Positions 6,517-10,124 of a DNA stretch of 10,124 bases are shown here, in pieces. The position numbers were made by a program, and so were the translations under genes. Origin of the DNA: Candidatus Scatomorpha stercorigallinarum. Lineage in GTDB: Bacteria; Bacillota_A; Clostridia; Oscillospirales; Oscillospiraceae. Location of the stretch: assembly GCA_018713375.1 (NCBI GenBank), contig DVOV01000014.1, forward strand, positions 1 through 10,124, read 5' to 3'. Numbering within the stretch: position 1 is the stretch's first letter; every line of letters starts with the position of its first letter. Below the pieces are notes generated by a model that had not been told where the DNA came from, searched no databases, and worked only from the letters and a program-made list of their open reading frames with translations.

Positions 6517-6626
6517 AGCATACCCCACAAAAGCGTTCTGCGCCATCATATGCCGGCGTGGAGCCCGGGGGCACAAAAATACCGCAGGGCGGCGGCCCGG
6601 CGGCAAATTTTTCCAATATAGGCCAT

Positions 6627-7111
6627 AAAAAACATCTGACCCTCACATACTGCCCGATACATACTTTTCAAAGCCCTACGCAGTTACTTCCAAGTTTTAT
6701 TCTTCCCGTATGTCTCATTCACGCGGCTTTCGTTCGCCATTCGCGCTGTGCGTTTATTTGGCATTCGCTTGCCTGCGTTTTTTTGACATCTGGTCAAGTG
6801 CAAACTTTGCGTCCCGCTTTTACATGTATCGATTTTTCGCAGGTGAGGGTCAGATGCTGTGATTCTTGGTATCTAACATCCATTTAACCTCTCTTTCTAC
6901 AGATTTCGGATCTCCGGCTGCGCACGTTTGCTGGGAATATGTCCTTCAAAAGCCCCGAACAAATATGCTATCCTCTTCTCATTTTTGCTTTTACCAAAGC
7001 CAGCTCACATTAACGGCTGCTCATGATAACATGTTCCGCAATTCGTATGCCGCCCGGTATCGATCCGATACACCGATAAGGCCTTGGCTTTTCGCCTTGC
7101 CTTTACCTTCT
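6627..7111 (-). ncRNA. Candidate structured non-coding RNA or long transporter leader
   Basis: A near-consensus promoter (7146-7118) should start a leftward transcript near 7111. Its last 230 nt are closed by a perfect 14-bp helix, CATCTGACCCTCAC (6856-6843) with GTGAGGGTCAGATG (6646-6633), and six U's follow at once (6632-6627). The enclosed region is tiled by further helices: 6 bp at 6659-6664/6708-6713, ACGC/GCGT plus GGC/GCC at 6721-6753, GGCA/TGCC at 6760-6773, CCTGCG/CGCAGG at 6772-6777/6838-6843, and inside that TTGAC/GTCAA at 6783-6797. The 5' part has its own hairpins at 7078-7103 and 7055-7075. No frame has neighbour-like codon use, and base composition is much lower in GC. I do not recognise the family. 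It was inspected for tmRNA, RNase P, SRP and common riboswitch cores without a match. It could be stand-alone, or an attenuator for the ZIP gene. Confidence 0.55.
6633..6856. repeat. 14-bp inverted repeat with 196-bp spacer
   Basis: The arms are 6633-6646 and 6843-6856 and are perfect. They are best read as the closing helix of the RNA above, because T6 follows on the minus strand. They could also be terminal inverted repeats of a 224-bp MITE-like element, but the bases flanking the two arms show no target-site duplication. Confidence 0.8.
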
Positions 7112-7117
7112 GGTCAT

Positions 7118-7146
7118 AATATACCACCGCGCCCCGCAAATGTCAA
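7118..7146 (-). promoter_or_regulatory. Strong sigma-A promoter upstream of the candidate RNA
   Basis: On the minus strand a perfect TTGACA (7146-7141) is followed after 17 bp by TATATT (7123-7118). No open reading frame of note begins within the next 100 nt, which is why an untranslated product is proposed. An imperfect palindrome with the core ACAAATTTGT (7166-7175) lies about 20 bp upstream of the -35 box. Confidence 0.82.
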
Positions 7147-9460: not shown

Positions 9461-10040
9461 TCACCAGTTGAGAAATGTACTGTGCGCGATCCCGAGCATC
9501 CGCGCGGCGGCGCGTGCGCTGATATCATTGCTGAGATAGCTGTCCATCAACGGATAAAAGTCCTCGGGGATAGGCAGCTTTTCTCTGCCGAAGCGCACCC
9601 CGCGCGCTTTCGCCGCCGCTATGCCTTCGGCCTGCCGCTGCCTTGTATTCTCGCGCTCCACCTGCGCCACGTAGCAGAGGATCTGCAGCACGATATCTGC
9701 TATGAATGTGCCTGTGAGATCTCTGCCTTTTTGGCGGGTATCTAAAAGCGGCATATCCAGCACGACTATGTCCGCGCACTTCACCTTGGTGATATGCCGC
9801 CACTGTTCCTGTATCTCGGTGTAATTTCGCCCAAGCCTGTCGATCGATTTTATTACAAACATCTCCGGCCCTGATGCGCCGCACCAGGCATTTGTACTGC
9901 GGCCTTTCAAAATTTTTGCCGCTCAACTTGTCGGCATAGATGTACCTCTCCGACACGCCAAACTCCCGCATGGCGACGAGCTGCCTTTCCTCGTACTGGT
10001 CTCTGCTGGATACGCGCACATATCCGTACATTTTTCCCAT
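9461..10040 (-). pseudogene. Serine recombinase (resolvase/invertase family), broken by a frameshift
   Basis: The N-terminal piece begins at the ATG at 10040, with GGAGG 7 nt upstream, and reads MGKMYGYVRVSSRDQ. Ser11 in RVSS is the expected nucleophile. KLSGKNFERPQYK and RIRAGD follow. At about 9856-9860 (GTTTG on the minus strand) the frame is lost. The rest of the protein continues in another frame as FVIKSIDRLGRNY, then GTFIADIVLQILCYVAQVER, AAKARGVRFGREK and a helix-turn-helix-like tail SARAAARMLGIAHSTFLNW, stopping at 9461. The joined product would be about 193 residues, normal for a small resolvase. Relatives usually read GDVLVIKSIDRLGRN, so the loss of two T's from a T-run would explain the break. 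Unless it is a sequencing error, the enzyme is split between the nucleophile and the arginine-bearing part and should be inactive. Confidence 0.87.
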
Positions 10041-10124
10041 GAATATGCCTCCTATAGCATGAAAAAGTGTCACCGTATAGGATGCCATCATTCACCGCAA
10101 AATGCGGTAAGAATATATAAAGAA

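Follow-up and report, generated by a model that had tools for sequence, protein, structure and literature searches.

Short open reading frames (ORFs) at regulatory hairpins are known from leader-peptide attenuators such as tnaC and the ermC leader, and in the bar minigenes of lambda two-codon ORFs stand behind Shine-Dalgarno (SD) sequences, their translation releasing peptidyl-tRNA and slowing translation. The element described here is like the attenuators in having a short ORF at a hairpin, but lacks a consistent downstream gene or orientation; it is like the bar minigenes in having two-codon ORFs, but its copies are conserved, chromosomal, terminated RNA genes. To raiA, OLE, ROOL and GOLLD, the large structured RNAs of Bacillota, the likeness is confined to size, and no scan matched them. 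In the cry3A mRNA of Bacillus thuringiensis, as outlined in a review (PMC4113751), a ribosome at a 5' site, the STAB-SD, protects the RNA from 5' exonuclease. Our element is similar in carrying near the RNA 5' end an SD-like purine run that can pair with the 3' end of 16S rRNA; it differs in that an ORF of at most four codons usually comes next, the RNA is stand-alone, and a second site lies at its 3' end. The dual-function small RNA SR1/SR1P of Bacillus subtilis (PMC8501984) is likewise a stand-alone RNA with a small ORF, whereas the ORFs of our family have 2–10 codons, with the stop inside the terminator stem, and the family is multi-copy.

The locus lies on the minus strand of the window (the whole stretch of 10,124 nucleotides that was analysed), upstream of a gene for a ZIP metal transporter, and its parts are listed in Table 1. 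An initial annotation had proposed either a stand-alone structured RNA of about 485 nt or a metal- or ligand-switched leader of the ZIP gene. Several of its observations were borne out. The promoter has 11 of 12 consensus bases, with TG ahead of the -10 box, and is the better of the two promoter-like sites found in 2 kb (shuffle mean, 0.7); the perfect 14-bp helix followed by six U's is indeed formed by exact complements and a T run; and the GC content per 200-base window is lower in the tract (0.44–0.50) than in its neighbours (0.59–0.77). A strong terminator-like site (7277-7249) is found upstream of the promoter. Absent from that annotation were an SD and a nine-codon ORF (hereafter ORF2) with its stop in the 5' arm of the helix; a second ATG, four bases upstream of the ORF2 ATG, opens another frame. 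At the position of the AGAAGGT near the predicted 5' end, many relatives have a strong SD and an ORF of at most four codons (ORF1), whereas the window is without that ORF. The promoter of its own, the upstream terminator-like site, homologues with the same ends and covariation in the helix favour a predicted stand-alone transcript of about 485 nt, and on balance we lean toward reading the tract as a member of a new family of stand-alone RNA genes found in Clostridia (Oscillospiraceae-type genomes), in which micro-ORFs would hold the RNA between two ribosomes. Elsewhere in the window, a gene for an aminoacyl-tRNA editing domain protein (PF04073; 5115-5654, minus strand) directly follows ZIP, and two overlapping frames at 9461-10091 on the minus strand (MYGYVRVSSRDQYEERQ... 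and ...VIKSIDRLGRNYTEIQEQW...) resemble, by eye, one serine recombinase apparently split by a frameshift.

Table 1. Positions in the window of the parts of the element and of the neighbouring hairpin.
Feature	Positions	Strand	Remarks
Promoter TTGACA-N17-TATATT, extended -10 (TG)	7118..7146	(-)	From sequence; kept in L001-L003
AGAAGGT at predicted 5' end, weak complement of the 16S tail	7105..7111	(-)	Duplex -9.5 kcal/mol
5' domain, about 215 nt, differing between relatives	6899..7111	(-)	
Extended Shine-Dalgarno AGAAAGAGAGGT of ORF2	6887..6898	(-)	
ORF2, ATG TTA GAT ACC AAG AAT CAC AGC ATC TGA = MLDTKNHSI-stop	6850..6879	(-)	Stop within terminator 5' arm
Terminator 5' arm (14-bp helix of the initial annotation)	6843..6856	(-)	
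196-nt insert in the terminator loop, common to window and L001	6647..6842	(-)	12-13 nt at this place in L002 and L003
Terminator 3' arm	6633..6646	(-)	Exact 14-bp complement of 6856-6843
Terminator U-tract, six T	6627..6632	(-)	
Second terminator-like hairpin, weak, ahead of ZIP	6581..6596	(-)	Similar sites in L002 and L003

Based on a scan for ZIP proteins (Pfam PF02535), 62 loci were collected and compared with the tract by BLAST. Three of them (L001, L002 and L003) match, and in all three the match lies upstream of ZIP and co-directional with it; L001 is 75% identical over 547 aligned positions, and the alignment of the window with these three shows conservation of the promoter, of the final 100 nt and of the terminator. 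BLAST with the core at E <= 0.01 gave hits in 53 of 296 relatives of L001's genome, three of which (G074, G079 and G208) match only outside the core and were taken as chance. A covariance model, R1, was built from 27 simple copies; the window scores 57.4 bits against it (E = 7e-10), with the extended SD and the tiny ORF ending in the terminator 5' arm present. With R1, 22 of the 391 genomes in a class sample match, one of them (G409/L123) within an apparent protein gene, as do 74 of the 394 genomes in an order sample under strict filters, with at most four matches per genome and, in six of the 74, a best E above 1e-5. The distinct strong R1 matches in genomes of Clostridia number 148 and share the extended SD, the tiny ORF and the intrinsic terminator. 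Candidatus Scatomorpha, at the centre of the samples, is placed by the NCBI taxonomy in Clostridia, Eubacteriales, and its GTDB order we take to be Oscillospirales. Twelve of the 32 genomes behind the named loci match R1; chance probably explains the two weakest matches, in Enterococcus aquimarinus (E = 0.002) and a Bacilli MAG (E = 0.006), and the remaining ten genomes carry the labels Scatomorpha, Oscillospiraceae, Oscillibacter, Ruminococcaceae or Eubacteriales. Among the 20 genomes of this set in which R1 found no match are Treponema, Bacteroidales, Chloroflexi, archaea, other Bacilli and Lachnospiraceae, as well as two labelled Oscillospiraceae (L042 and L052) and three labelled Clostridia (L046, L053 and L060). 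A phage or plasmid origin was considered and rejected: plasmids gave no match, and the sole phage match covered 23 nt at E 0.2. In IMG/VR, the exact core pattern stands right at the end of one viral contig (L101, 6164-6191, plus strand), and at another locus (L107, 1699-1889, plus strand) a tRNA and a Gut-1 RNA (RF01706, 72.6 bits) lie about 90 and about 200 nt downstream of a family member.

Counted on the covariance-model matches without requiring particular codons, an ORF of 7–12 codons stands behind the SD in 146 of the 148 strong matches (related copies, not independent counts), and in 143 of these it has 9–10 codons; its stop is TGA in 83, TAA in 53 and TAG in 10, and it is lost in two (L183 and L219). 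After base-shuffling, an 8–10-codon ORF appears on average in 13.5 of 148 and never in more than 24. The stop falls exactly eight codons past the L codon in 136 of the 148, and the peptide has the consensus M-L-D-[I/T/N]-K-x4-stop, sometimes with an extra residue ahead of L. Variation at the codons for L, D and K is synonymous in 45 cells and non-synonymous in 13, and some of the latter (L210 and L213) are an alignment frame offset. Such codon-type variation supports translation of the ORF, which appears to behave like a translated frame in which about four residues are under selection; a fixed nucleotide motif recognized by some partner could mimic part of this codon conservation. The SD of ORF2 pairs with the 16S tail at -14.8 kcal/mol (shuffled, -6.8), and since the copies were found through that motif, its strength gives no independent support. 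More diverged peptides (MAEPKSEEN, MSEPKNEQK and MIEPKSFGK) have a D to E exchange, and E-P-K or E-P-A replaces D-x-K in L124, L125, L210, L213 and L218; the family probably reaches further than R1. It seems very likely that the family exists and that ORF2 is translated. A plain mRNA for a signal or effector peptide of 9–10 residues, with the remainder as untranslated leader, would also account for conserved L, D and K residues and for variation that is mainly synonymous. However, conservation is limited to about four residues, the final four are variable and also form a terminator arm, and the leaders reach several hundred nt, with a covarying pair in one cluster, so that we consider such an mRNA quite improbable.

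The terminator into which ORF2 runs is itself conserved as a structure. In two alignments of R1 matches, fitted to the model in a way that raises the paired percentage and holding 17 weak reverse-strand rows of the same hairpins, two-sided changes were seen at 17 of 17 and 16 of 17 modelled pairs, and 96.9% and 96.8% of the cells are paired; without the reverse-strand rows the percentages are 96.7% and 96.9% and the pair counts are unchanged. None of 500 shuffles reaches any of five measures, and slid-structure controls give at most 53.9% paired. The first alignment, of 27 copies and not model-fitted, has two-sided changes at 16 of 17 terminator pairs. The 14-bp helix of the initial annotation thus holds up as a covarying helix. 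That annotation had set conserved codons against conserved pairing, an opposition that did not stand; both were found, the pairing in the terminator and the codons in the tiny ORF entering it.

The structure enclosed by the helix is a different matter. The 485-nt tract folds with z = -5.64 (100 shuffles) and its last 234 nt with z = -6.83 (200 shuffles), no shuffled sequence being equally stable in either case. The four side-by-side helices of a multi-branch junction proposed earlier were not recovered: minimum free energy and centroid folds form one long stacked arm, and two of the listed helix intervals, 6760-6773 and 6772-6843, overlap each other. The window and L001, the only close relative found for the insert (65% identical columns), share 39 pairs including the terminator, 34 of them unchanged, five with one-sided and none with two-sided changes, because of which the predicted fold inside the 14-bp helix is unproven; consensus folding gave weak results for both the insert and the 5' domain. 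The terminator loop measures 196 nt in the window and 199 nt in L001, whereas L002 and L003, with 12-13 nt, have a simple hairpin, which argues that what had been taken for a closing helix is an ordinary intrinsic terminator whose loop has received an extra domain. Long loops occur in six of 120 extracted copies (window, L001, L075, L076, L078 and L162), as domains of 194-225 nt inside terminators at different loci of related genomes. L001 carries the related pieces AGGCGAACGAAGGCC and TGGCGAACGAAGGCC. As a candidate known element, the insert was rejected; five of 60 relatives searched match it at E <= 0.1, and only G001, the genome of L001, does so convincingly (2.2e-13), the other four lying at E 0.014-0.048.

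At the other end of the RNA, ORF1 was scored as an AUG 14–34 nt into a segment starting about 3 nt before the predicted start, with a stop within four codons. Of the 120 extracted copies, 96 have a clear promoter, and 62 of these carry ORF1 about 20 nt from the predicted start, compared with a mean of 6.6 and at most 12 in dinucleotide shuffles. The remaining 34 include the window, which like its near relatives L001-L003 and L075-L078 has a weaker purine run and no AUG; ORF1 is a frequent and not a defining feature of the family. Over the first 26 nt, pairing with the 3' tail of 16S rRNA averages -17.1 kcal/mol in the copies with ORF1 (shuffled, -7.4; stronger in 62/62) and -10.7 kcal/mol in those without it (shuffled, -7.7; stronger in 21/34), while random middle pieces give -6.5 (shuffled, -6.6). 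A 16S complement of the STAB-SD type is therefore clear in the former and marginal in the latter, the value for the window being that in Table 1. The ORF1 peptides are MYR, MY, MF, MKI, MRN and others. Two or three mini-ORFs follow the promoter in L106, L115, L137, L144 and L147; L115 has two units, and L106 has three MFR-stop units in a row, near-identical and about 45 nt long, as if duplicated. A minigene regulator, in which repeated translation of 2–3-codon ORFs frees peptidyl-tRNA, ties up initiating ribosomes or particular tRNAs and slows translation, would be in keeping with minimal ORFs behind very strong SDs, with tandem repeats such as those of L106, and with the copies in which the middle is nearly absent (L083, L096 and L170). 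Codons 2-3 vary among copies, however, and the window and its nearest relatives keep ORF2 but lack ORF1, and we regard such a regulator as decidedly unlikely.

The neighbourhood of the element differs from copy to copy. Among 66 copies at loci of at most 50% GC (GC-rich loci were left out), 58 are followed within 500 nt by a clear ORF, which is co-directional in 27 and on the opposite strand in 31; by eye, the downstream genes share no common function. ZIP was recognised as a neighbour only in the window, L001, L002 and L003, and is co-directional in all four; in L002 and L003 another terminator-like site lies between the RNA and ZIP, each weak alone (shuffles give 0.4 such sites). The many unrelated loci, the mixed orientation and these second sites do not bear out the ZIP leader of the initial annotation and point instead to a stand-alone, multi-copy RNA gene family; a ZIP leader or riboswitch was rejected on this context, the element having no consistent position before a metal-transport gene.

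An SD and a stop within the terminator would also suit a ribosome-gated attenuator, in which the ribosome on ORF2 covers the terminator 5' arm, and translation status or arrest at LDxK sets readthrough into the next gene, here ZIP. The stop lies inside the 5' arm at the fixed distance given above, a stop-in-hairpin geometry like that of leader-peptide attenuators, and ZIP is co-directional at all four of its loci. Against this, the next gene is convergent at 31 of the 58 scored loci, the downstream genes have no function in common, L002 and L003 have the second terminator-like site before ZIP, and tandem copies exist (G226, G800, G866 and G855). An attenuator seems unlikely to us. The tandem copies, together with several copies per genome (four matches each in G149 and G791) and variable inserts, might bring to mind a mobile or repetitive DNA element spread by transposition. 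Yet the same neighbours are kept at large divergence (by eye, the ZIP locus and metA, sensor-kinase-like and rubrerythrin-like genes), and the copies have their own promoter and a covarying terminator; spread by transposition is most improbable as an explanation.

The middle region between the two ORFs ranges from almost nil (L083, L096 and L170; in L106, the tandem mini-ORFs only) to several hundred nt. When 91 middles were compared, 20 fell into one cluster and the remainder into 57 clusters of four or fewer; because the middle is unalignable across most copies, an effector role for it is unproven. In the large cluster, a motif CACG-R-CG-GUG...CG-Y is found in 16 of 18 chosen rows, with R/Y as A-U in eight and G-C in eight; this is a single pair among related sequences and would be compatible with a small pseudoknot. 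The row of the window in this alignment was rejected as a chance pattern match.

With Rfam 15 covariance models (raiA, OLE, ROOL, GOLLD, 6S, T-box and others), no match to the element was found at the curated threshold in the window and 38 loci, and so raiA and OLE, named by the initial annotation as first candidates, fall away. The only matches above threshold in the 38 loci, tRNAs and one Gut-1, lie outside the element. Below threshold, the trpB motif (RF04312) covers the core of L137 (1438-1560, minus strand) at 36.4 bits, with a threshold of 59 and E 0.22. We could not find a description of the family in the open full-text literature searched, nor in the main text of three discovery papers (PMC11109978, PMC8040213 and PMC8632094) under a few terms. 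The RNA gene family is apparently undescribed; an anonymous earlier prediction is possible, because thousands of candidates are reported in PMC8040213.

Promoter, terminator covariation, in-frame ORFs with codon-type variation and independence from the next gene are established here at the level of comparative sequence analysis, and a working scheme may be drawn from them. Each member would be transcribed from its own sigma-70-type promoter as a terminated unit independent of the next gene. Most scored copies present an extended SD and ORF1 of at most four codons near the start. The middle that follows varies and is often structured, and toward the 3' end comes another extended SD with the 9–10-codon ORF2, which enters the intrinsic terminator and has its stop in the hairpin; the window copy lacks the first AUG and carries an extra 196 nt within the terminator loop. 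If both ORFs are translated, a 30S subunit or 70S ribosome at the 5' site may shield the RNA from 5' exonuclease, as at the STAB-SD, and the ribosome on ORF2 should slow because it must melt the terminator hairpin to reach the stop, with L-D-x-K just made. That ribosome would occupy the 3' end, the RNA would be capped at both ends, and the capped RNA may act in trans through its structured middle. This capping by ribosomes is conceivable, although we would put it at somewhat less than an even chance. The fullest form of the scheme is a structured effector RNA between two ribosome-loading micro-ORFs, with nascent LDxK parking the ribosome before or on the terminator and with abundance and activity reporting free ribosomes; it would be a categorically new kind of RNA, and we advance it tentatively, as a doubtful extension.

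In short, the window appears to hold one member of a multi-copy RNA gene family that is present in about one in five of the genomes sampled from a single clostridial order (74 of 394, six of them weak). The anatomy of the family predicts ribosomes that would serve as RNA end-caps, ORFs of 2–3 codons that would be under selection, and 9–10-residue peptides in which about four positions are conserved; usual gene finding passes over ORFs and peptides of such sizes.
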